Below are positions 5,386 to 24,275 of a DNA stretch of 34,111 nt, in pieces. Origin of the DNA: Candidatus Parabeggiatoa sp. nov. 3 (GTDB lineage: Bacteria; Pseudomonadota; Gammaproteobacteria; Beggiatoales; Beggiatoaceae); NCBI GenBank assembly GCA_003645185.1, contig QNEL01000019.1, positions 1 to 34,111 of the forward strand, read 5' to 3'. The notes under the pieces were generated by a model. The model worked only from the letters and a program-made list of their open reading frames with translations, searched no databases and was not told the origin of the DNA. The position numbers and the translations under genes are program-made. The stretch's first letter is position 1. Each line of letters opens with the position of its first letter.

Positions 5386-6573
5386 ATGAACCCTAAACAT
5401 AAAAAAATGCTGATTGTTGGTGGTGGATATGCGGATATTCCACTGATTTTATCTGCAAAAAAACTTGGCTATCATGTTATTACAACTGGAAATCGTCCCA
5501 ACGAATTAGGGCATCTTTATTCTGACGAATACCATCAAGCCGATTTTTCTGAGATCAAAGCAATGCTTACACTAAGTGAGCAATTAAAAATCAGTGCCAT
5601 TTGTGCTTGTTGTAACGATTTTTCTGCACTATCATCTGCCTATGTTGCTGAAAAATTGGGGCTACCAGGCCATGATTCATACGAAATTGCAAAAATTATT
5701 CATCATAAAGATTTGTATCGTCAATTTGCCCTAGAAAATGCTATATCATCACCTATAGCTATGGGGTTTGCAAATATAAAAGAAGCCTTAAACCGTATTG
5801 AATCATTATCTTTTCCTTTAATTATAAAACCGGTAGATTTGACGGGTGGTAAAGGTATTTCTATAATTAATTATATTGCCCAAGCTAAACCGGCGTTAGA
5901 AAAAGCATTCTCGGCTTCACCGGCAAAACGCATCGTTGTAGAAGAATTTATTAGCGGAAGTCGTCATGGTTTTTCAGCTTTTTTGCATAATGGGCATATT
6001 ATTTTTTTCTTTTCTGATAATGAACATTATTTTAAAAATCCTTATTTAGTTTCCGCAGCATCAACACCTAGTATTGTATCTTCAACTATAGAAAAAAAAC
6101 TTTGTTTAGAATCTGATAAAATTGCAAGTTTGTTATCTTTAAAAACGGGGATTTTTCATGTTCAGTATATTCTTAGAAAAGGAAAACCGGTCATTATTGA
6201 AATTTGTCGGCGTGCCCCCGGTGATCTCTATATTAAATTAGTTGAACATGCTACCGGTGTGTTATACCCTGATTGGATTGTTAAAGCCTCTGCCGGATTG
6301 GATTGTAATGGGTTATCTCATGTTGAGCCTAAAGGTTTTTTTACGCGCCATTGTGTGATGAGTGCTAAACATGGTAGGATAAAAAACATTATTTATGATT
6401 CTTTTATTAAAAAAAATATCATAGATCAATTTATGTGGTGGAAAAAGGGTGATTATGTTTCTGATGTGATGACTTCAAAATTTGGTATCGTTTTTCTGCA
6501 ATTTGACTCTATGGAAGAAATGCTAACAAAAACTGAGCGTATGCAAGAATTGATCTATGTTGAAGTTGAATAG
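5386..6573 (+). CDS. ATP-grasp domain-containing protein (carbamoyl-phosphate synthase L/biotin carboxylase-like)
   Basis: 'FPLIIKPVDLTGGKGISIINYIAQA', 'VVEEFISGSRHGFSAF', 'PVIIEICRRAPGDLYIKLVEHATG'. Confidence 0.85.
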   Translation: MNPKHKKMLIVGGGYADIPLILSAKKLGYHVITTGNRPNELGHLYSDEYHQADFSEIKAMLTLSEQLKISAICACCNDFSALSSAYVAEKLGLPGHDSYEIAKIIHHKDLYRQFALENAISSPIAMGFANIKEALNRIESLSFPLIIKPVDLTGGKGISIINYIAQAKPALEKAFSASPAKRIVVEEFISGSRHGFSAFLHNGHIIFFFSDNEHYFKNPYLVSAASTPSIVSSTIEKKLCLESDKIASLLSLKTGIFHVQYILRKGKPVIIEICRRAPGDLYIKLVEHATGVLYPDWIVKASAGLDCNGLSHVEPKGFFTRHCVMSAKHGRIKNIIYDSFIKKNIIDQFMWWKKGDYVSDVMTSKFGIVFLQFDSMEEMLTKTERMQELIYVEVE

Positions 6574-6612
6574 CAACTACTTTTTCTAGGAATTTAACAA
6601 GTCAACAAAATA

Positions 6613-7362
6613 ATGGAATTGCTTAAAAATAAGGTTGCTATAGTAACTGGTGGCTCACGTGGGCTTGGTAAAGCCATTGCACTTAAATTTGCGTCTCATG
6701 GTGCATCATTGATATTAGTTGCAACAAATCAAGAACGCTTAAATCAAGCCGCATACGAAGTGCGGAATATGGGAGCAAAAGCTGAGATTGTTGCCGGGGA
6801 TATTGCTAAACCAGAGTTTTCTGAAGAAATTGTAAAAGTGACACTAGATCATTTTGGTCAAATTGATGTTTTAGTAAATTGTGCAGGTGTGATTACTCGC
6901 ACGCCAGTAGAACAATTACCCCTTGAAGAGTGGTACAGAGTGATTGACGTTAATTTACATGGCACATTTCATGCTTGTCGTGCGGTTCTGCCTTTGATGC
7001 GTGCTCAAGCGTCTGGCAAAATCATTAATATGACATCGCAAATGGCAAAATTGCCGCATCCAAGTGCCTCACCAAGTTATGAAGTGTCTAAAGCTGGACA
7101 AATTGCTTTAACTCGCCATCTAGCTTATCATTATGCACAATATAATATTTGTATTAATGCAATAGCGCCAGGTTCAATTAATACCGATATGCCAAAAAGC
7201 ATGAATCCTGAAGCACGAGAACGTTTGCGTCGTGCCATTCCTCTGCGCCGCCTTGGTGAGCCTGATGAAGTGGCAAATTGCGCGCTTTTTCTTGCCACAT
7301 CTCTATCCGATTATATTACCGGGGAAACGATTGATATCAATGGTGGCACATTAATGGATTAG
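6613..7362 (+). CDS. SDR family oxidoreductase (FabG-like)
   Basis: 'VAIVTGGSRGLGKAIA' (TGxxxGxG), 'VNCAGV', S...YxxxK ('PSYEVSKAG'), 'GETIDINGG'. Confidence 0.95.
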   Translation: MELLKNKVAIVTGGSRGLGKAIALKFASHGASLILVATNQERLNQAAYEVRNMGAKAEIVAGDIAKPEFSEEIVKVTLDHFGQIDVLVNCAGVITRTPVEQLPLEEWYRVIDVNLHGTFHACRAVLPLMRAQASGKIINMTSQMAKLPHPSASPSYEVSKAGQIALTRHLAYHYAQYNICINAIAPGSINTDMPKSMNPEARERLRRAIPLRRLGEPDEVANCALFLATSLSDYITGETIDINGGTLMD

Positions 7363-7553
7363 TTATAGCATTTTTCGATTGGGTTAAATACAATTATTAT
7401 GTCATTGAAATAAATAAGTATTTCGTCTGGTGGGTGTAGCTAAAAAAAGTCGGAAAACGCTCTCTATAAATATTTAGGTTGTTGATTATACTGACAATAG
7501 GCCTTTGCACCAATCCGCTCAATCCCCTGATCCGTTGTACTAATAGATAGGTT

Positions 7554-8573
7554 ATGGAAACAAGCCAGTTAAATAAAATATCGACGCGCTATTATTGGGA
7601 ACACTTTTTATTAGTACCAGATAACCTCCTAAAATCTCTGTTTTATCCTACAAACATGGCGACTGATGAACAAAGCGCATTATTTAAAAAGTTTGTTTGT
7701 ATTGTCAATCTAGAAACGAGCAAGTATTGTAATAGAAAGTGTTCGTATTGCCCGGTATCGTTAAATGACAGTAGAAAAAATAAGTTATACATGACAGATG
7801 AACTTTTTAACAACATTTTGAGTGAACTAGAAAGCATCAATTATTCGTCTACAATTGTTTTTAATCTTTACAATGAACCATTAGCCGATAAAAATATTTA
7901 TTTTAAAATCAAACAAGTACGAAAAAGCTTACCTTATTCATTCCTCATGTTCAATTCCAATGGTGATTATGTTGAGTCAGATATCTTAAATCAATTAAGT
8001 CAAATAGGTTTAAATGCACTATTTGTGACATTACATCCTCCTGTTAATAAACCTTATCAATTAGAAGATCGACTGAAAGCGTTTAAAAAATTTAAAAAAA
8101 AAATAGGACGAGATATAAGTCAATCTGAAATCAGTGCGCCTTTAGAAAACGGACAGATTGAATCAAATCTTGATTGGAACGGTATGAGACTGCGTATCAT
8201 GGCTAATGATTGGTTAAAATATGGTAACTCGCGTGCAGGTACACTTAGTTTTCTCAATGCCTCAACAACTAGAACATTACCATGTGCACGTTCGTTGCGT
8301 GAGTTGACTATCAGTCATGATGGTAATGTTTTTCCATGCTGTCAGTTTTTTCCAGATAGTGTGGAAAATGAAAAGTATAAAATAGATAATGTGTCATCTA
8401 AAAGTATTTTTGAAATATATGCCTCAAACGCACTAGCAAAATGGCGCAAAAACCTTTTTACTTTTGGGGAAAAAGAAACGCCATGCGATAGTTGTCGGGA
8501 TGAAGATTTTTCAAAACAAGATTCTTTGGAAATAAGAAAAACTATTCTTAATAGGTTAAGTACTAAAGCATAA
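7554..8573 (+). CDS. Radical SAM/SPASM domain protein
   Basis: 'CNRKCSYC' (CxxxCxxC); C-terminal Cys-rich 'ISHDGNVFPCCQFF...CDSCRDEDF'. Confidence 0.9.
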   Translation: METSQLNKISTRYYWEHFLLVPDNLLKSLFYPTNMATDEQSALFKKFVCIVNLETSKYCNRKCSYCPVSLNDSRKNKLYMTDELFNNILSELESINYSSTIVFNLYNEPLADKNIYFKIKQVRKSLPYSFLMFNSNGDYVESDILNQLSQIGLNALFVTLHPPVNKPYQLEDRLKAFKKFKKKIGRDISQSEISAPLENGQIESNLDWNGMRLRIMANDWLKYGNSRAGTLSFLNASTTRTLPCARSLRELTISHDGNVFPCCQFFPDSVENEKYKIDNVSSKSIFEIYASNALAKWRKNLFTFGEKETPCDSCRDEDFSKQDSLEIRKTILNRLSTKA

Positions 8574-10007: not shown

Positions 10008-11375
10008 ATGCAAATTAAAATCAGAAATTTTGGCCCTGTAAAAGAATTTAATTTTGATTTCACCAAAGACTTTGTGGTTATTTTCGGCAAAAATAATCTT
10101 GGTAAGTCTTATGCTCTTTCTGCGGTTTATTTAGTTTTAAAGAATCTGTTGAACATGAAAATGGACCGAATTAGGAAAGATGAGGTATTATCACAGCTAG
10201 TTTCATATTCTCAGATTCAGTTTCGGGTTAATATGGCAGTGAAGGAGGCTCATGAAATAATAAATCCACAGAATGAAATGATAAGCACACAGCTTTTTTC
10301 ACTGTTCCAAGAGTTGCTGGAAGAAATTGAAGAGTCTTTTTATAACACTTTTGATAATATGACTAACCAATTTTCTAAAGAGATACCGAGTGTGACAATC
10401 AAGAAAGGTTCGGATGAATTCACAATGGAAATTCAAGAACAAAAATTGGTACCTAAAACGACAGATATTGTTGCTAAAATAAACAAATTATTTAGAGAAT
10501 ACAGAGAAAAGTTTTCTTATGAAGCGCTGACAGAAGACGAATATGATGATGAGCTTAGGGCAGATATTGATCTGGTTTTAGAACAAGCTTTATTTTTTCT
10601 TGACGACGAATATTTGGGTAAAGTTAAAAAAGAAACTTCGCTGATATTTTTACCGGCTTCCCGTTCTGGTTTATATCAAGGATTAAATAGCCTTTCTCAA
10701 ATTATGGTTGAGTTATCAAAAAGTCGGAGATTTACCACCAAAAAACTTGAACTCCCCAATATTTCTGAACCATGCAGCGACTATTTTTTAGGTTTATCTA
10801 GTCTGCAACCCAAAAACTTGAAGGATGATAATCCGATTTTAGGCATTGTGAATGAGATAGAACAAACGATTCTCAAAGGTGAAGTCATTTTTGATGAAGT
10901 GACTAAAAAAATGTTTTATAACCCTCATCAAACCGATTTAGTGTTAGATATCTCTGCAACCTCTTCAATGGTTTCAGAACTATCCCCTATAGTTTGTTAC
11001 CTAAAATATCAAGTGGCTGTGGCAAACTCAAAATCTATTATTTTTATAGAAGAGCCAGAAGCTAATTTACATCCAGAAGCCCAGATACAACTAATGGAAA
11101 TATTGGCCAAATTGGTTAAAGCGAACGTCAAAATTGTAATCACATCTCATAGTGATTATCTGTTTAACAAACTGAACAACCTCATTTTAGAAGGAAAAAT
11201 TGATATAGCTTCCATACAAGCAACTGTTTTCAAAGAAACACCTCAAGGTAGCATTGCTAAAGATGTTCCTATAGACAAGCTAGGCATTGATGATGAAAAT
11301 TTTCTGGAAATTGCTGAAGATATCTTTAACGAAAAATTAGCCGCAATAGAAAAATTGAATGATGAGGATTCATGA
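10008..11375 (+). CDS. AAA family ATPase (OLD/RecF/AAA_15-like, no TOPRIM)
   Basis: Walker A 'GKNNLGKSYALSAVYL', Walker B 'SIIFIEEPEANLHPEAQ', D-loop/switch region 'VKIVITSHSDYLFNKL'. Confidence 0.9.
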   Translation: MQIKIRNFGPVKEFNFDFTKDFVVIFGKNNLGKSYALSAVYLVLKNLLNMKMDRIRKDEVLSQLVSYSQIQFRVNMAVKEAHEIINPQNEMISTQLFSLFQELLEEIEESFYNTFDNMTNQFSKEIPSVTIKKGSDEFTMEIQEQKLVPKTTDIVAKINKLFREYREKFSYEALTEDEYDDELRADIDLVLEQALFFLDDEYLGKVKKETSLIFLPASRSGLYQGLNSLSQIMVELSKSRRFTTKKLELPNISEPCSDYFLGLSSLQPKNLKDDNPILGIVNEIEQTILKGEVIFDEVTKKMFYNPHQTDLVLDISATSSMVSELSPIVCYLKYQVAVANSKSIIFIEEPEANLHPEAQIQLMEILAKLVKANVKIVITSHSDYLFNKLNNLILEGKIDIASIQATVFKETPQGSIAKDVPIDKLGIDDENFLEIAEDIFNEKLAAIEKLNDEDS

Positions 11376-11896
11376 TGTTTGACAAAATTATAAATTCAGA
11401 TTTAGTTGGTTTACGTCGAGAAACTTGTGAGGAAAATAATGCTCGTGTTGAATTTAGCAAGCAATTAGCAGAAGATAACTACATTGTCTTAAAAATTGAT
11501 GCATACTATAACTCAAAAAGAGAACCTAACCCTCCCCCCTCTATTGACTGCTTAATTCTTGTTAAATGTGATACTAATGAATGTTATGACTTTTACTTAG
11601 TAGAACTGAAAGACATTAAGTCTTTAAAAGGTCTTAACATTAAAAACATACAACAAAAATTTGCAACAACAATCAATGATTTCTTAAATAAGGAATTTAA
11701 AGATATTTTTGATGCTTACTGCATAAATGATTTTAAACTTTACTTGGTGTTAGGTGAAACATTCTCAAAAAAATACGGGAAAAAGATGGGTTCTTCGCAA
11801 TTAAAAATTTTTACACTCCAAAAATTATATCACTTTAGAAATAAAATAGCAGCAATTAACCCAATACCATCAGATTATCAGGTCAAAGAATGCTGA
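11372..11896 (+). CDS. Small PD-(D/E)XK nuclease-like partner protein
   Basis: Start overlaps the upstream stop by 4 bp (ATGA). E...'SIDCLIL'...'FYLVELKD' fits E-xn-D-xn-ExK. Confidence 0.6.
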   Translation: MMFDKIINSDLVGLRRETCEENNARVEFSKQLAEDNYIVLKIDAYYNSKREPNPPPSIDCLILVKCDTNECYDFYLVELKDIKSLKGLNIKNIQQKFATTINDFLNKEFKDIFDAYCINDFKLYLVLGETFSKKYGKKMGSSQLKIFTLQKLYHFRNKIAAINPIPSDYQVKEC

Positions 11897-12110: not shown

Positions 12111-13526
12111 ATGAAATGCCTTTTAATTTCGCCCCCCTTTGATCCTAACAGAGTTACAAGGCGGTTTCCGCCAATGTCTCTGCTTTATCTTGCTGCCAGT
12201 TTAAGAAAATTTGGTCATGAACCCGTTATATCCAATCTTGGCGTATTCATTGGCACAGATGAGAATACTTTAAAAGAAATCACGCTGCAAACAGTTAATG
12301 AATATCAACCGGAATTAGTTGGTTTTACCTGCTCAAGTTCATCATTCCCTCTCGTAAGAAAAAGTGCGGCTTATATCAAAGAATCCTTTCCCAATGTCAA
12401 AATTATAGTTGGAGGTATGCACCCAACACTATTTCCTAGAGAAATTTTAGAGAATTGTTCTTTTATAGATTATATTGCGATTGGTGAGGCTGATTACACC
12501 TTCGTAAAACTTTGCGATATGCTTGATGCGAATGAGACAGATTTTACTACGCCTGGAATAGCCCAAAGAACAAAATATGGAAAAATTGTTATCGGAGAAC
12601 GTCCAGAACCCATCAAAAATCTTGATGACTTACCGATGCCAGCATGGCAAGATATTTCTATCAATGATTATCGCTTTGATTATTCTGCATGGCTTAATCC
12701 CAAAAAACATAAGATTGACATCGTAGCTCCCATATTAACCAGTCGCAGTTGTCCTTTTGACTGTAATTTCTGTGCTTTTAATACTTTAATGGGACGTGGT
12801 TTTCGTTATCATAGTCCGGCACGAGTTGTTGATGAAATTGAAAGACTGCATAAGCAATTTGGGGTAAATTATTTTGAATTTATTGACGATAATATGGGCA
12901 TTAAAAAATCTCGTTTAATCGCAATATGCAATGAGATATTAAAAAGAAATTTGGATATCCAATTTACTTCTATGAGCGGGCTTCACATTGCGACGATTGA
13001 CCAAGATATAGTTGATGCCCTATGTGACGCTGGATATTGACATGCCATCCTTCCCGTTGAACATGCTTCAGAGTTCATTCGGAACAAAGTGATTGGAAAA
13101 AAACTATCTCGTGATAAAATTTTTGAAGTGGCAGAGTTATTTAAGAAAAGAGGACTCATGACTCGTGGTTTTTTTATTATTGGATTTCCTGAAGAAACTG
13201 ATGAAACCATAAAAGAAACTATACAGATGATCAAAGAACTTGATTTTGATCTTGTCAATGTATTTAATTTGATTCCATTTCCGGGAACACGACTGTTCCA
13301 ACAGTGTTTGGAACATAAATTATTTCTAAACAAAGTTGATACCAATACTTTATGGAAAGGAGAATTGGGTTTAGATACATCAGACCATAGTGGCTTCTAT
13401 TTAAAACCTTTTGCTATGCCGATGGAAAAATTAATAGCGTATAGACAAGAAATCGATCAGTTAGTTCGTGATAAGCAACAACAAACTCAATTAAAAATCA
13501 AAAATCAGAACTTAGTCTTTGTCTAA
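12111..13526 (+). pseudogene. B12-binding radical SAM protein interrupted by an in-frame TGA (13038-13040)
   Basis: N-terminal B12-binding-like Rossmann region 'LAASLRKFGHEPVIS...GGMHPTLFPREIL'; 'SRSCPFDCNFC'. The frame continues after TGA: 'CDAGY*HAILPVEHASEFIRNKVIGKKLSRDKI', as expected for this family. Confidence 0.85.
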
Positions 13527-13656: not shown

Positions 13657-13683
13657 ACCTGAAAACTTATGCTTCAGTACTTA
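13657..13683 (+). repeat. Copy of the 'GAAAACTTATGCTTCAGTACTTA' end motif
   Basis: Also at 95-120 and 18436-18460; inverted partial copy at 18341-18355. Confidence 0.75.
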
Positions 13684-13698
13684 AACAAGGAACAAAAA

Positions 13699-15873
13699 AT
13701 GGTAACAGACAATAGACAATTTGATGCCAATAAAAAACAAGTCAGCTTGAAAAATTTATATTTGGATCCAAACAACTTTCGTTTAATCCATGAGCCTGAC
13801 TATAAAGAAGTTCCAGAACAATCGTTCAAAGAAAAATCGGTTCAGCATCGAACCTCTCAGTTATTAGTGGGTCATAAAAATCAGAATATTAAAGATATTC
13901 TGGACAGTTTTAACGCGAATGACTACCTACCGGTTGATCAGATACAAGTTCGCCCATTGGAGGTGGGAAGATATGTTGTTGTTGAAGGTAATCGGCGGAT
14001 TGCAACCCTGAAATATCTCCAATCAGAGTATGAGCAAAAAGGTATTGATCTGGGTAAACTCAATTCGGATATTTTTAGTAAAGTCCCGGTGGTTTTATAT
14101 ACTGATAGCGATGAAATGCATCATCTTACTTTGATGGCCCTGAAACATATCAGTGGCAACAAAAAATGGGGAGAATGGAATCAGGCTAAGTTGCTTGACA
14201 AAATGCATTCTACCTACGAACTTGCAGAAGAAGAAATATGCAAACGGGTAGCCATTACTAAAATAGAACTACGCCGTTCTTTAAGGGCTTTGTCATTTCT
14301 TCAGCAATATCAGGATTCTGATTATGGTGATCAATTTAACGAAAATAAATTTCCCATTTTTCGCGAAATTGTTCGTAATGCGGTTTTAAAAAAGTGGTTA
14401 AAATGGGATGATAATGAATATAAGTCCCAAAATGCTCAAAATTGTGAATTTTTATTTTCCTTAATATCCACAGAACCGTTGGAAAATGAAGATGATGACG
14501 GCAGTGTATCTTATGGAGATGATCACCTGAAACCGGCACTGGTGACACGAGATGATATCAGATTATTAGGCCAGATAATTAATGATGAAAAAGCACTTGA
14601 ACAATTAAAACTCACTCGTGATATCAATGCAGCGTACCGTTCTAGTAGTCTGATGTTTCGTGAACATCAACAGGCTGCTATAAAATCAATCAGCAATGAA
14701 ATTGACACTTTAGGACAAATGGTGATTCAGGAAGATTCTTTGCCGGATATTGAATCCGTTCTTGGTCGTCTTCAGGGCATTATAAACCGAGCGAAAGCAT
14801 CTAGTATTATCAGTCTTGTCGGTGTGGAGCAAAAAATCGTGTTTCATGATCGCATTGATGCTCATTTTTCTGAACTGTCAGTGTCTAACTATAAACGATT
14901 GCAAAATCTAACCATTTCAAAGTTGTCCCGTATCAATCTTATTACTGGTATTAACAATTCAGGAAAAACAACATTACTTGAGGCTGTCTATCTACTTTGT
15001 CGTCAGAATGATTTTGGGGGTTTGTTGGAAGTGATTCGACGGCGCGGAAAAATGACTGAAGATCGGATCAATCCAGAATGGTTTATTGAGCAGATACCAC
15101 CGGTGATTGAGATTAGTGGACAATTTGATAACTCTAATGCAACTATTTTGATAAAACACTATAAAGAAAAGAATAGCAGCATCGACAAATCACATTATCT
15201 TGAGTCGGTAGAAATTTCTTCATGTTATGCCGAAACGTCGCTCAAATCTCTTATCAGAATATTCAAAGGGCAAGATCGTGAAACTCAGGCGGAGCGTATT
15301 AAAATTCTTTGTCCATCCGTGTTTAGTAGTCCTTTTTTCTTAAATGAACCACACCGCTATGCACAGCACCACTATAAAAGTGTGCAATCCAAAAGCTTAC
15401 CTAAAATCGTTGAATTCATTCGTGAAAAGGTGGTAGAAACGGTTGAGGATATTCGACTGGCTGATGAAATGCAACGCTTTCTGGTTACTGATCGTGTATT
15501 CCAGGAAACCTTAGACTTAACCGGATACGGTGAAGGGTTACAGCGTATTTTTTTCCTTTCACTACTATTTGCCTCGGCACAAAATGGAATTATTCTTATT
15601 GACGAGTTTGAAAATGCCATTCATACGAAATTGATCGCTCAGTTTGCGGGATTTATTGATGAACTCTCGAAACTTTTTAATACCCAAGTATTTTTGACTA
15701 GCCATAGTAAAGAGTGTATTGATGCTTTCGTTAAAAATATGCCACAAATAGATGATCTATCCGCGTGTGCTTTAGTGGAAAATGAAGAAGGTATTGTTGC
15801 CAGAGAATTCACAGGCAAAAAATTCAGGCGACTTGTCGAGGCTGGTAATGTTGATCTGAGGAGGGCAAAATAA
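13699..15873 (+). CDS. ParB/Srx-like N-terminal domain fused to a C-terminal AAA/ABC-like ATPase (OLD/RecF type)
   Basis: N-term 'VSLKNLYLDPNNFRL...VRPLEVGRYVVVEGNRRIATLKYL' (ParB-like). Walker A 'LITGINNSGKTTLLEAVYLL', Walker B 'GIILIDEFENAIH', 'VFLTSHSKECIDAF'. The track start at 13669 (MLQYL) lies in a repeat, so 13699 is more likely. Confidence 0.85.
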   Translation: MVTDNRQFDANKKQVSLKNLYLDPNNFRLIHEPDYKEVPEQSFKEKSVQHRTSQLLVGHKNQNIKDILDSFNANDYLPVDQIQVRPLEVGRYVVVEGNRRIATLKYLQSEYEQKGIDLGKLNSDIFSKVPVVLYTDSDEMHHLTLMALKHISGNKKWGEWNQAKLLDKMHSTYELAEEEICKRVAITKIELRRSLRALSFLQQYQDSDYGDQFNENKFPIFREIVRNAVLKKWLKWDDNEYKSQNAQNCEFLFSLISTEPLENEDDDGSVSYGDDHLKPALVTRDDIRLLGQIINDEKALEQLKLTRDINAAYRSSSLMFREHQQAAIKSISNEIDTLGQMVIQEDSLPDIESVLGRLQGIINRAKASSIISLVGVEQKIVFHDRIDAHFSELSVSNYKRLQNLTISKLSRINLITGINNSGKTTLLEAVYLLCRQNDFGGLLEVIRRRGKMTEDRINPEWFIEQIPPVIEISGQFDNSNATILIKHYKEKNSSIDKSHYLESVEISSCYAETSLKSLIRIFKGQDRETQAERIKILCPSVFSSPFFLNEPHRYAQHHYKSVQSKSLPKIVEFIREKVVETVEDIRLADEMQRFLVTDRVFQETLDLTGYGEGLQRIFFLSLLFASAQNGIILIDEFENAIHTKLIAQFAGFIDELSKLFNTQVFLTSHSKECIDAFVKNMPQIDDLSACALVENEEGIVAREFTGKKFRRLVEAGNVDLRRAK

Positions 15874-16790
15874 TGGAAAAGATTAATGTCCTACTGGTAT
15901 TTTGTGAAGGTCCACACGATGTTGCTTTTTGTCGTCTGATGTTCAAGTATTATTTTGATATTAAACAAATTAGTTGGAAATTTAGCGAATATCCGGCACC
16001 GTTTAATCAGTTATTCAAAACCAGCATGGAAAATCATGCCGCGCAGGATATGAGTCTGGATATGGCACACAAGTTTTTTCTGCCGGATAAAACATTATAC
16101 AATGAAAACAGAAAATTGCTGGTATTGCTTTTTAACACAGGGGGAAAAACCAAAACAAATAATCCGAAAGATTTTCTTAAAGATTTCTTGCCGCTATTTG
16201 AAGACCGAGAATCCTTTTCTGACGATGCGAAGAAAATAGTCAATAACTGTAACTACCTGTTTCTGTACGATAGAGATTACAAAGAACCTTCTGATGTGTT
16301 TTCATGGTGTAAGAATGAATTTGCACAGATTGGAGATGATGATATTATTTTTCTCGAAGAAAATTTTATAATAGATGATGGAAACAATCTCGCCGCAAGC
16401 TGTATGAAAAAAACGGTTGGCGTTTATGTATTTGCAAAACCCGATTCTCTAGGAACACTGGAAGACATTCTTCTTCCCATGTTGGAATCCGCACAAAGCG
16501 AGTTGTTCAATAAAGCTGAAAAATTTATTGATAGTGCATTCACTTGGAAACCGGAACAAGATAAGGTTAAGAACAGGGTTGCTGAAATTGCGAAAAGGAA
16601 AAAAGCGATAATCACAACAATGGGGCAAAGAAAAAAGCCGGGTTCATCCATGAACGTTGTTATTGATCAAGGAAAACTGATCTCAACAGACATTTTCACC
16701 CAAAATAATGATGTCAAACTGTTTGTTGATTTTGTTGCCTCTTTGGCAGTATTAAGAACCGAAGAATTTACCCAAAATAATCGGAGCTAA
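15873..16790 (+). CDS. TOPRIM-like protein (DUF3226/OLD-TOPRIM type)
   Basis: 'LLVFCEGPHDVAFCRLMFKYYF' (catalytic-Glu strand), 'NYLFLYDRDY' (DxD), 'GTLEDILLPML'. Start overlaps the upstream stop (TAATG). Confidence 0.65.
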   Translation: MEKINVLLVFCEGPHDVAFCRLMFKYYFDIKQISWKFSEYPAPFNQLFKTSMENHAAQDMSLDMAHKFFLPDKTLYNENRKLLVLLFNTGGKTKTNNPKDFLKDFLPLFEDRESFSDDAKKIVNNCNYLFLYDRDYKEPSDVFSWCKNEFAQIGDDDIIFLEENFIIDDGNNLAASCMKKTVGVYVFAKPDSLGTLEDILLPMLESAQSELFNKAEKFIDSAFTWKPEQDKVKNRVAEIAKRKKAIITTMGQRKKPGSSMNVVIDQGKLISTDIFTQNNDVKLFVDFVASLAVLRTEEFTQNNRS

Positions 16791-17764: not shown

Positions 17765-18028
17765 ATGGAAATCGAATTTGATCCAAATAAAGCATCATCA
17801 AACCTCATCAAGCATGGCATTTCTTTTGAAGAATCATCAACGGCACTTCTTGACCCATTAGCTTTGGTTCGAGAGGATCCGGATGCTGAGGGTGAGAACC
17901 GCTGGGTGCTGATAGGTATGAGTAATCAAGCGAGATTGCTAACTGTCGTTTATACGCTACGAAATGAACGTATTCGTCTTATTTCGGCGCGTAAAGCAAC
18001 TAAAAAGGAGGCAAAAATTTATGCGTGA
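17765..18028 (+). CDS. brnT: BrnT family toxin
   Basis: 'EIEFDPNKASSNLIKHGISFEES...RWVLIGMSNQARLLTVVYTLRNERIRLISARKATKKEAKIYA'. Confidence 0.95.
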   Translation: MEIEFDPNKASSNLIKHGISFEESSTALLDPLALVREDPDAEGENRWVLIGMSNQARLLTVVYTLRNERIRLISARKATKKEAKIYA

Positions 18029-18257
18029 AGAATATGATTTTTCAAATGCAAAAAGGGCTAAGGACGTACCTCATCTCTCAAAATTGCAAGCCGAAGCCAA
18101 AGATAAAACTTGTGTTATTATCATGCTGGATAATGAAGTTCTTCAAAGCTATCAAGCAAAAGCAAAAGAGAAAGGACTTTCATATCAAACACTTATTAAC
18201 CATACTCTGATGGAATCAATGGCTTATCGGAGCATTGATGAAGCTTCACCCGCATAG
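18021..18257 (+). CDS. brnA: BrnA family antitoxin
   Basis: Start 18021 after 'aaggaggc', overlapping brnT by 8 bp; 'MREEYDFSNAKRAKDVP...SYQTLINHTLMES'. Confidence 0.9.
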   Translation: MREEYDFSNAKRAKDVPHLSKLQAEAKDKTCVIIMLDNEVLQSYQAKAKEKGLSYQTLINHTLMESMAYRSIDEASPA

Positions 18258-20619: not shown

Positions 20620-22314
20620 ATGAAATCTAACAAAGTAGAACTAATCAAGTTAATTCAACAATTCAATCGTCAAATTTGTCAGTTATTTAGGAATGATATC
20701 TTTTCATTTTCCTTTGCGGTGTTGTTTGTATCTTGTTTACTACTTTTTCTTCCCAGAACCTATAGTATTAATGATAACGTAGGTATTTTATTTAACGCAA
20801 AACAAGGGTTGATCTCAGAATTTACATCCTTTTTTTACATGAAATTGCTCCATCTTTTGTATCATATAACCCATGATATACCATGGTACGGATTAACCTT
20901 ATATTTTGCACATATTTTTAGTTTGTTTATTTTTGTCAGAAGTTTGGCAAGGATAAAAAACTTTGACACTTTTTTCATTCCTTTTCTCATTGTATATCTT
21001 TACTTTTACAGTTTTTTTATTACCCAAGTAGATTATACATCAACCAGTATAATGGTTGGTGCAAACAGCCTATTCGCTTTTTTAGTTTTATTAAACAATA
21101 GAAAAATTTCTATTTTCTATGTGTTAGGATTAGGCATATTATTTTCATTGTCATTTTCGATACGAATACCCGGCGCATTTGCGGTTTTTGTTTATGGGCT
21201 TCCAATCATAGGCTTGTTTTTAATTTACCAATATCAAAAAACCAAGTATTTTGTGATTTTCTTTATGCCATTCCTATTATTATTTATTGGAGATAATCTA
21301 GCACGTACTTATTTGACTTCACCTGAATATCAACAATACCATGACTTCAATAGTTTAAGGAGGGAATTACATGAAAATCCAATATTGAGGGATAATCAAA
21401 ATAATCATAAGATTTTAGAGGCCAATAATTGGACACCGGATGACTACAATAGATTTCAAAGGTGGAATTTTTTTGACGAGAGAAAATATAATACTCATAC
21501 GCTTGGCAATATTTTTAAATACTCTGTATCAATAGAGGAAAATAAAATACAAAAATATATGAGTTTGTATTCTCAAAAATTAGGTGAACTAATAAAACAT
21601 CCCGATATAAAGTGGCATATTTATTTTCTATTACTGATTTCTATGCTTATCATCTTTAAGTTTTACTGGTTTATCGTTTTGGCAATATTATGTTATCTTT
21701 CTTATGCCATTTCCGTCTGTATATATCTTGATATTTTTTACCGTTTTCCCGTTAGAATTGCACATCCTATTTTATTAATATGTGCTAGTTTTGTCATTTT
21801 ATTAATATTTCATTTATGGTCACATAAATTTACGACCAAAAATACTCATGGTATTTTTGTAACAACTTTTATTATTGGCGTTTTCTGGTTTCTGTTTAAT
21901 ATTGGTATACACCATAATATTTCTACAAACATTGCCTTTAAATTATCTCTAAATAGATTACAATCTGCATATCAAGGTAAAATATTGTATATTCCGCCTA
22001 ATGTACTTCGCTGGGAAAAAATGGATCCGTTAAAGAGATATCATTTTAATTTTCATAAGATAGTATACGCTGGTGGTACTGGTACTTTTTCACCCGGTTT
22101 TTACAACGAGTTGGAAAAATTGGGGGTAAAAAAAGGTTATGAAATGATACCGGCTTTGATAAACAATCCCAATGCTTATATAGTAGAAACGAAGACTAAT
22201 CCCTATTGCGTGCCCCCCTTTATGGAAAATTATAACCTCGAATGCGATGGAGTTATCATTGAGCAGCTACCAAATGATCGTGTAGTTATTAAACTAAACC
22301 CAAAAACACTATAG
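20620..22314 (+). CDS. Multi-TM membrane protein, GT-C-like, paralogue A
   Basis: 564 aa, many TM segments, 'RTYSINDNVGILFNAKQG' loop; strongly similar to the next ORF. Confidence 0.8.
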   Translation: MKSNKVELIKLIQQFNRQICQLFRNDIFSFSFAVLFVSCLLLFLPRTYSINDNVGILFNAKQGLISEFTSFFYMKLLHLLYHITHDIPWYGLTLYFAHIFSLFIFVRSLARIKNFDTFFIPFLIVYLYFYSFFITQVDYTSTSIMVGANSLFAFLVLLNNRKISIFYVLGLGILFSLSFSIRIPGAFAVFVYGLPIIGLFLIYQYQKTKYFVIFFMPFLLLFIGDNLARTYLTSPEYQQYHDFNSLRRELHENPILRDNQNNHKILEANNWTPDDYNRFQRWNFFDERKYNTHTLGNIFKYSVSIEENKIQKYMSLYSQKLGELIKHPDIKWHIYFLLLISMLIIFKFYWFIVLAILCYLSYAISVCIYLDIFYRFPVRIAHPILLICASFVILLIFHLWSHKFTTKNTHGIFVTTFIIGVFWFLFNIGIHHNISTNIAFKLSLNRLQSAYQGKILYIPPNVLRWEKMDPLKRYHFNFHKIVYAGGTGTFSPGFYNELEKLGVKKGYEMIPALINNPNAYIVETKTNPYCVPPFMENYNLECDGVIIEQLPNDRVVIKLNPKTL

Positions 22315-22425
22315 AAATGATAACTATTCATTAAAACGATGGTATAGATGTCCAGATAAGTTTCAGCCTATACCTGCTAGGTTTTTAAAACCTATAGACG
22401 TTCAGAAAAATAAATTCAAAATCTA

Positions 22426-22458
22426 AAACCTGCTAGGTCTTGAAGACCTAGCAGGTTT
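22426..22458. repeat. Perfect hairpin, 15-bp stem, 3-nt loop
   Basis: aaacctgctaggtct-tga-agacctagcaggttt. Confidence 0.9.
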
Positions 22459-22583
22459 GTGAAGCTATTTACCTGAAAAACTATAGCAGGTCTTTTCGCA
22501 GGGACAAAACTTTTCTGGCTAACTATATACGCTCAATTATCTTCCTTGTCTATTCAGAAAAGTCACTTTAGAAAAAAACAAAA

Positions 22584-24275
22584 ATGAAATATCTAATCAA
22601 GTTAATTCAAAAATTCAATCGTCAAATTTGTAAGTTATTTAGAAATGATATCTTTTTATTTTTTGTGGTGGTGTCGTTTGTAGCTTCTTTGCTACTGGTA
22701 CTTCCTAGAACTTATCGTATTAATGATAACGTAGCTATTTTATTTAAGGCAGAACAAGGATTCATCTCAGAATTTACATCTTTTTTTTACATGAAATTGC
22801 TCCATATTTTATATCAAATGAGCAATGACATGCCATGGTACGGATTGACATTATATTTTGTACATATTTTGAGTTTGTTTATTTTTGTCAGAAGTTTGGC
22901 TAGGATAAAAAACTTTGACACTTTTTTCATTCCTTTTCTTATTGTATATTTCTACTTTTACAGTTTTTTTATTCTTCAAGTCGATTATACCTCAACCAGT
23001 ATAATGGTTGGTGCAAACAGCCTATTTGCTTTTTTAGTTTTGTTAAGCAGTAGAAAAGTTTCTATTTTCTATGTGTTAGGATTAGGGCTATTATTTTCAC
23101 TGTCATTTTCGATACGAATGCAAAGTGCCTATGCGGTTTTGGTTTATGGGCTTCCAATCATAGGCTTGTTTTTAATTTACCAATATCAAAAAACCAAGTA
23201 TTTTGTGATTTTCTTTATGCCATTCCTATTATTATTGATTGGAGATAATCTAGCACGTACCCATTTGACTTCACCTGAATATCAACAATACCATGAGTTC
23301 AATAATTTGAGAGGCAATTTACACGGATACCCAATAATAGAAGCTAATCGAAATAATAATAAAATTTTAGCAAAAAATAATTGGACAAAGAATGATTATG
23401 ACAGTTTTGCAAACTGGGTTATATTCTTTGATGAAAGAAAATATAACACTAATACGCTTGGCAATATTTTTAAATATTCTGTCTTAGAAAAAGAAAATAA
23501 AATACAAAAATACTTTGATTTGTATTTTTATAGATTAAAAAGATTAATCAAACACCATATACAGTGGTCTGTTTTTTTAATATTATTTATTGCTATGCTT
23601 ATAGTTTTTAAATTTTATTGGTTTATTGTATCAATAATATTTTGTTATCTCTTTTATGCCATTTCATTCTCTGTGTATATGGATATTTTTTATCGCTTCC
23701 CTGACAGAATTGCCTTTCCAATTTTATTAATGTGTGCTAGTTTTATCATTTTATTAATATTTCATTTATTGCCACCCAAATTTTCAACCAAAAATACCAA
23801 TCACCGTATTTTTGTAGCTACTTTTATTTTTAGTGTTTTATGGTTTTTGTTTAACATTGGTATATACCAGAATCTTTCCCCAAACACTGCCTTTCAATTA
23901 TCCCTAAATAAATTACAGTCTTTATATAAGGAAAAAATATTTTTCTTTGTTCATCCGGCATTTGGACTCAAATTGGAAAATTTGGATCCATTAAAAAAAT
24001 ATCATCTGAATTTTGAAATGATTCCCAATGGTACCGGTACTTTTTCTCCTCGTTTTTACAATAGTTTGGAAAAATTAGGTATAAAAACAGGTTATGAAAT
24101 CATACCTGTTTTAATAAACAATCCAAATGCATATATCATAGCACCGAGCAAAAAGAATGATTTTCTAACACTCTTTTTAAACTATATAATGGCAAACTAT
24201 CAAATCAAATGCAAAGTGGTTTTAATTGACCAGTTAGCAAATGGTAGTGTGATTCTTAAACTCAAGCCAAAATAA
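22584..24275 (+). CDS. Multi-TM membrane protein, GT-C-like, paralogue B
   Basis: 563 aa; aligns along its length with 20620-22314, including a 95-bp identical DNA stretch. Confidence 0.8.
   Translation: MKYLIKLIQKFNRQICKLFRNDIFLFFVVVSFVASLLLVLPRTYRINDNVAILFKAEQGFISEFTSFFYMKLLHILYQMSNDMPWYGLTLYFVHILSLFIFVRSLARIKNFDTFFIPFLIVYFYFYSFFILQVDYTSTSIMVGANSLFAFLVLLSSRKVSIFYVLGLGLLFSLSFSIRMQSAYAVLVYGLPIIGLFLIYQYQKTKYFVIFFMPFLLLLIGDNLARTHLTSPEYQQYHEFNNLRGNLHGYPIIEANRNNNKILAKNNWTKNDYDSFANWVIFFDERKYNTNTLGNIFKYSVLEKENKIQKYFDLYFYRLKRLIKHHIQWSVFLILFIAMLIVFKFYWFIVSIIFCYLFYAISFSVYMDIFYRFPDRIAFPILLMCASFIILLIFHLLPPKFSTKNTNHRIFVATFIFSVLWFLFNIGIYQNLSPNTAFQLSLNKLQSLYKEKIFFFVHPAFGLKLENLDPLKKYHLNFEMIPNGTGTFSPRFYNSLEKLGIKTGYEIIPVLINNPNAYIIAPSKKNDFLTLFLNYIMANYQIKCKVVLIDQLANGSVILKLKPK

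Follow-up and report, generated by a model that had tools for sequence, protein, structure and literature searches.

The stretch of DNA analysed here (the window, 34,111 nucleotides) is the whole of contig C19 of the 8.4-Mb genome of Candidatus Parabeggiatoa sp. nov. 3. It carries two adjoining forward-strand genes, A and B, with the features below; residue numbers of protein A are counted from the ATG at 13669.

13687-13691, + strand: ribosome-binding site AAGGA of gene A, 7 nt upstream of the ATG at 13699.
13699-15873, + strand: gene A, ParB-HTH-ABC ATPase protein (PDC-M38A), 724 aa from the ATG at 13699; the open reading frame 13669-15873 gives 734 aa if the ATG at 13669 is used.
13726-14148, + strand: divergent ParB_N (ParB/Srx) domain, residues 20-160, with motifs DPNN.R and EGNRR (hhalign; Pfam in homologues; AF2 pLDDT about 90).
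14173-14313, + strand: ParB-type helix-turn-helix (HTH) region, residues 169-215 (collinear hhalign; Pfam HTH_ParB).
14314-14853, + strand: helical middle and linker, residues 216-395 (DSSP on the model); the natural ParB deletion described below ends inside it, near residue 320.
14854-15870, + strand: OLD/AAA_15/AAA_21-type ABC ATPase domain, residues 396-734 (Pfam; Foldseek).
14947-14970, + strand: Walker A, GINNSGKT, residues 427-434, conserved.
15589-15606, + strand: Walker B, LIDE (ILIDE region), residues 641-646, conserved.
15703-15705, + strand: H-loop histidine H679 (TSHSKEC), conserved.
15859-15865, + strand: ribosome-binding site AGGAGGG of gene B, read from the sequence.
15873-16790, + strand: gene B, TOPRIM-like protein (PDC-M38B / DUF3226), 305 aa.
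15906-15908, + strand: E12 of CEG..D, immediately following strand 1 of the protein (DSSP), invariant in 25 homologues.
16269-16277, + strand: D133-x-D135 (YDRD), at a strand end before helix 139-150 (DSSP); D133 invariant, D135 conserved in at least 90%.
16452-16466, + strand: GTLED, residues 194-198, E197 invariant in 25 homologues.
16602-16604, + strand: K244, invariant in 25 homologues.

The two genes share one base (TAATG at 15871-15875), and both frames are present as the initial annotation had described them. That annotation had also given gene A a start at 13699 and a length of 734 aa; the start stands, but 734 aa requires the ATG at 13669. The ATG at 13699 is likely the better start, giving a predicted 724 aa, because AAGGA precedes it at a distance of 7 nt and because ribosome site, start and first codons are positioned in the relatives as they are here. 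A dN/dS of 0.16-0.26 (pairwise Nei-Gojobori estimate) shows purifying selection on the frames, which are therefore not open by chance. Candidatus Thiomargarita nelsonii is the closest named relative in A (86-87% identity). The genes close to the pair in the window encode radical-SAM proteins and glycosyltransferases and do not belong to BREX.

Several other features were observed in the window. At its edge (73-663) lies a gene for a DUF4276 protein that matches HEC-01B (E=2e-27), whose ATPase partner would fall beyond the contig. Another ATPase pair, whose genes overlap by 4 nt (10008-11896), encodes a 455-aa AAA_15 protein (PDC-M47A, E=1e-34; PD-T4-4_A, E=4e-32) and a 174-aa protein with no Pfam or PADLOC match. 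A B12-binding radical SAM gene (12111-13526) occupies two frames, with an interruption at about 13040-13089; overlapping genes for a BrnT toxin and a BrnA antitoxin lie at 17765-18257, and two tandem genes at 20620-24275 encode 563/564-aa proteins that are 70% identical to each other and have no Pfam match. The same genome (G000) also holds four DUF4435 (AriB-type) genes (L082, L085, L086 and L087, on contigs C428, C99, C110 and C381).

The arrangement had been taken for one without a name. On the basis of profile matches, however, the pair is a member of PDC-M38, a PADLOC "phage defence candidate", and hence not unnamed. Model PDLC04607 (PDC-M38A, 715 positions) covers the whole ParB-ATPase fusion, aligning residues 19-731 of A with its positions 7-714 of 715 (E=5.4e-264), and model PDLC04617 (PDC-M38B) covers the adjoining partner, aligning residues 2-291 of B with positions 3-285 of 289 (E=1.2e-92). 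Both proteins match over their full length, the ParB part of A included, the two genes stand side by side, and no difference from the candidate was found; other PDC-M38A models (360-383 positions) are without the ParB part. In the literature collection that was searched, no published study of PDC-M38 or DUF3226 was found.

The C-terminal half of A is a complete ABC/OLD-type ATPase, as first annotated, with Walker A, Walker B and H-loop (TSHS) intact and conserved; a GEGLQR signature-like motif is conserved as well. Pfam assigned it to AAA_21/AAA_15, and Foldseek matched it to PtuA, Rad50, SMC, GajA and retron ATPases. Among defence profiles, the domain matched AbiLi models at E=7e-33 and AriA models at E=5e-24.

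The ParB-like N-terminus was more difficult to recognise from the window protein by itself, which has no Pfam ParB_N match at E<=1 and scores 18.8 bits with TIGR00180, under the cut-off; in the PDB profile search the best match of this part was the ParB-like protein 6ryk (E=0.04). Chance was nevertheless rejected as an explanation, since the evidence is weak for the single sequence but convincing for the family profile. Profile-profile comparison of the A family with canonical ParB gave E=1.9e-7 (hhalign probability 93.7, 119 columns), and the alignment spans the ParB_N fold and then, collinearly, the HTH (residue 20 to about 215). Pfam ParB_N was detected in 23 of 35 A homologues (weak in each, best E 5e-4) and HTH_ParB in 9 of the 35 (weak in each, best E 2e-4). 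EGNRR (E106-GNRR-110) is invariant in all 35, and further invariant positions include D33, N35, N36, R38, H160, G163 and W167. The ParB assignment of the initial annotation was thereby borne out: a ParB_N fold with a G.RR motif, followed by an HTH, places the N-terminus of A in the ParB/Srx superfamily. Its order of domains is that of canonical ParB/Spo0J CTPases, but GERR is replaced by an invariant GNRR and ENIQRE by KHISGN, and membership among the canonical ParB CTPases was rejected for the replacement of the GERR and ENxQRE motifs. The replaced residues are the ones that ParB enzymes need for CTP hydrolysis, and a plain CTPase is therefore unlikely, as judged from the alignment. The ParB part is conserved like the ATPase, with 63 of 330 versus 54 of 340 positions reaching at least 90%. 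The AF2 model of A has a pLDDT of 87 and a pTM of 0.53, the latter leaving the arrangement of its domains unsure.

Protein B was annotated at first as TOPRIM-like. The motifs CEG..D, YDRD and GTLED are conserved in 25 B homologues; E12, D133, E197 and K244 are invariant, and D16, D135 and D198 nearly so. In the AF2 model of B (pLDDT 88, pTM 0.89), E12 comes right after strand 1, D133-x-D135 ends strand 121-133 and E197 lies beyond the next strand pair, a predicted placement of acidic residues that is the TOPRIM pattern. Sequence profiles were less decisive. The Pfam match of B is DUF3226; when the B profile was compared with OLD TOPRIM and DUF4435 sets, the EG..D motif was correctly aligned but the match was not significant, and hhalign of B against six proteins from a DUF4435 search, one of which was a neighbouring ATPase, gave P=0.15 over the EG..D motif only. 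A PDB profile search and a search of a viral fold library with B gave no match, and the sole significant match in the PDB fold search was 2p62/PH0156 (E=2e-6). The TOPRIM call is therefore supported by predicted topology and motif placement, not by profile homology, and a TOPRIM fold is likely rather than proven.

To find relatives, species genomes were scanned by the conserved ParB motifs, which returned 40 loci in several phyla; given this choice of query, ParB-less relatives are under-counted. A simple ORF picker supplied the neighbouring genes, selected ones being scanned singly, and genome bins may include foreign contigs. Wherever the contig extends past A, B adjoins it in all but about one relative, which bears out the conserved pairing that the neighbourhood check was meant to find; in a few, B is shortened or broken. 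Its frame is cut short in L016 and L024, A runs into B in L048, and no B was found within the bases read of L044. The loci with B beside A, mostly with an overlap of 1 or 4 nt, belong to Pseudomonadota, Bacteroidota, Campylobacterota, Bacillota, Acidobacteriota and other phyla. Distance matrices of A and B are correlated (r=0.89, p=2e-4), with host phylogeny uncontrolled but phyla mixed on the tree of A. That tree shows 16 changes of phylum, the distribution is patchy (6 of 399 genomes of the phylum), and one relative (L056) is carried on a viral contig. The pair is thus a mobile and probably anti-phage module.

Three unusual forms were also seen. In a Blautia bin (L048, 7941-10202), A continues in frame into the DAD strand region of B, which looks like the result of a deletion. 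On a Balneolaceae chromosome (L055, 7833-9888), the ParB-helical half of A stands alone as a 406-aa protein without the ATPase, followed by a different protein of 285 aa. In a P2-like phage (L058, 3920-6017), a separate ParB-like protein related to the module of A lies beside an unknown 330-aa protein, their genes being placed between the portal and DNA methyltransferase genes.

The initial annotation had proposed a split-OLD/PARIS-like module, and the comparison with known systems upholds this in outline only. PARIS likewise has a split ABC ATPase (AAA_15/AAA_21) and links to restriction and BREX, and its TOPRIM-type partner has a counterpart in the TOPRIM-like B. The pair is not PARIS, however, because B lies outside the AriB family: AriB is DUF4435, whereas B (DUF3226/PDC-M38B) has no detectable relation to it, with no AriB model among the PADLOC profiles matching B at E<=1 and no significant DUF4435 comparison. 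The AriA model (304 positions) matches only residues 422-685 of A, without ParB and HTH, and far more weakly than PDC-M38A does. AbiL is a two-gene Abi system whose AbiLi model matches the ATPase domain of A over the AbiLi length but is without a ParB part; membership was rejected, as no AbiLii model among the PADLOC profiles matched B at E<=1. OLD nucleases (class 1-3, GajA) couple an ABC ATPase to a TOPRIM nuclease in one chain, whereas here the ATPase and the TOPRIM-like part are in two frames and the profile of B does not match OLD TOPRIM significantly; this membership was rejected also. Two systems resemble the N-terminus but have no ABC ATPase. PD-Lambda-5, described as a compact R-M+Abi system (PMC9519451), has a related ParB-like N-terminal module (PD-Lambda-5_A to A residues 22-165, E=1e-10), and a ParB protein of the P2-like phage vB_EcoM-12474 is 22% identical to A residues 61-368. 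With full-length PDC-M38 matches and no AriB or AbiLii match, the pair was filed as PDC-M38 and described as PARIS/AbiL-like in its presumed working.

The search for defence genes around the pair, suggested with the first annotation, gave a positive answer. We found the pair inside BREX operons in five loci and inside a type III restriction operon in one Sulfurospirillum bin, both of which are new observations for this pair. It lies between the PglX and PglZ genes in L021, L023 and L031, between the PglZ and BrxL genes in L053, and directly 3' of pglZ, at the contig end, in L027. It overlaps by 4 nt with PglX in L031 and with PglZ in L021; L031 also carries BrxC, and its PglX is a tblastn match only. 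In the Sulfurospirillum bin (L038), the pair is flanked by type III mod and res, with a DrmD-like helicase upstream; L041 holds near-identical copies from the same MAG and is therefore not independent. In L042, a cytosine methyltransferase gene follows the pair, and an HpaII restriction enzyme is among the scanned neighbours (HpaII-type R-M). The large neighbours in L043 and L044 were considered as defence operons and rejected, being beta-oxidation genes and two-component and ligase genes, respectively. BREX association changes at least three times on the tree, and most loci, the window included, have no adjacent BREX or R-M system; in the parts of the window that were scanned, no BREX gene lies beside the pair, which is thus not placed in a BREX operon there. 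Recruitment of TOPRIM-linked OLD-ABC pairs into BREX operons has already been reported (PMC12839542), and the passages of that paper's main text that were consulted mention no ParB fusion.

Natural loss of the ParB module was found within the genus of the window. A 412-aa form of A starting at residue ~320 is present on contig C43 of the window's own genome and in a second genome of the genus (G400), 85-87% identical to the A of the window. The accompanying B is intact in G400 (300 aa) and cut at 216 aa in C43, and no ParB remnant was detected near either copy. Compared with the fused gene of T. nelsonii, these ParB-less genes retain ribosome site, start and five opening codons, after which they jump in frame to codon ~318 (junction local alignment score 47 versus a shuffle maximum of 28). 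The C43 copy was considered as an eroded fragment, which was rejected because the G400 pair is intact and the shared junction indicates an in-frame deletion; since both copies have one junction, the loss predates their split. Pairwise Nei-Gojobori dN/dS since that split is 0.22 for A and 0.18 for B. A clean in-frame deletion, described here for the first time, hence took the ParB and HTH parts only, with purifying selection continuing to act on the ParB-less genes. The ParB part looks detachable because close relatives lost exactly this part and kept the rest: ParB plus HTH can be removed as a module, leaving the ATPase-B core in place. Whatever selection preserves the rest of the pair does not depend on the ParB module, as the persistence of these copies shows, and an intact version lacking ParB speaks against ParB as the only sensor. 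A third, more distant ParB-less PDC-M38-type pair (391 + 265 aa) was seen beside a 1549-aa protein in the window's genome, on contig C146 (L090, G000:C146:6000-16000, 5616-7592, - strand).

We lean towards the interpretation that A and B are an immune module of split-OLD type, with sensor and effector encoded by two genes and a PARIS/AbiL-like working. In PARIS, AriA holds the tRNase AriB, senses the anti-restriction protein Ocr and then releases AriB (PMC11455837, PMC12409363). By analogy, the ABC ATPase part of A would assemble with B and hold it inactive, and the ParB-HTH module may bind DNA and/or a nucleotide and add specificity for an infection signal. That signal could arise when a phage attacks the BREX or restriction system hosting the pair; the placement in BREX and R-M operons makes restriction inhibitors the first trigger candidates. 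The trigger, together with ATP binding or hydrolysis, would free or activate B, which may then cut nucleic acid, either tRNA, like AriB, or DNA, like OLD, so that the infected cell is stopped or the invader destroyed. Domain make-up, intact motifs, pairing in nearly all relatives, correlated divergence, selection, siting in BREX and R-M operons and the loss of ParB as a unit are observed; from these we infer the defence function and the complex, sequestration, trigger and substrate, and the role of ParB would likewise be that of a sensor. Counted for this mechanism were the full-length PDC-M38A/B matches, the AbiLi/AriA-related ATPase with its fold matches to immune ABC ATPases, the conserved catalytic-type residues in both proteins, the adjacency and correlated distances of A and B and the placement in BREX and R-M operons; counted against it were the lack of a detectable relation of B to AriB or OLD TOPRIM, the non-BREX neighbours in the window and the persistence of ParB-less copies.

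Other explanations were weighed on the same evidence. The pair may be a DNA-targeting split OLD, in which ParB and HTH recognise invading or unmodified DNA and A loads B as a DNA nuclease, with a restriction-like or anti-plasmid outcome and not that of an abortive tRNase. ParB_N followed by HTH is the DNA-binding arrangement of canonical ParB, domains of the ParB/Srx type are used in restriction (GmrS/DUF262; PMC10952713), the ATPase resembles Rad50, SMC and OLD, and the systems whose operons house the pair, BREX and R-M, mark self DNA. The ParB-less copies persist under purifying selection, however, so that DNA recognition by the ParB module is not essential, and B lacks a profile relation to OLD TOPRIM DNases; we therefore consider this explanation somewhat unlikely. 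Quite improbable, in our estimation, is an accessory or regulatory part of BREX or R-M, such as a modification checkpoint, that is no independent defence and persists by itself in some genomes that have lost the host system: the embedding between core BREX genes and the 4-nt overlaps with PglX and PglZ fit such a role, but most loci stand apart from BREX and R-M, and the association varies between operon types. A non-immune housekeeping or DNA-repair pair of the RecF/OLD kind, to which a RecF/Rad50-like ATPase and an archaeal OLD-family ATPase with a cell-cycle role (PMC12796447) would be congenial, is very improbable in view of the patchy distribution over many phyla, the repeated phylum changes, the relative on a viral contig and the defence-operon context.

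A more speculative reading, which we hold to be unlikely as a whole, would make A a one-chain ParB-plus-SMC-like machine. Its ParB module, without the canonical residues for CTP hydrolysis, might load the OLD/Rad50-type ATPase on invading DNA, or read nucleotide or DNA-modification state, and so switch on a TOPRIM nuclease outside the AriB family; ParB would then be an exchangeable sensing cartridge, and the pair would guard BREX and restriction operons from within. One genus supplies natural alleles that differ in having or lacking ParB and are otherwise about 85% identical, and a comparison of their phage range would show what ParB senses. If the proposed working holds, a ParB-type sensor would be added to the PARIS/OLD group of immune ATPases.
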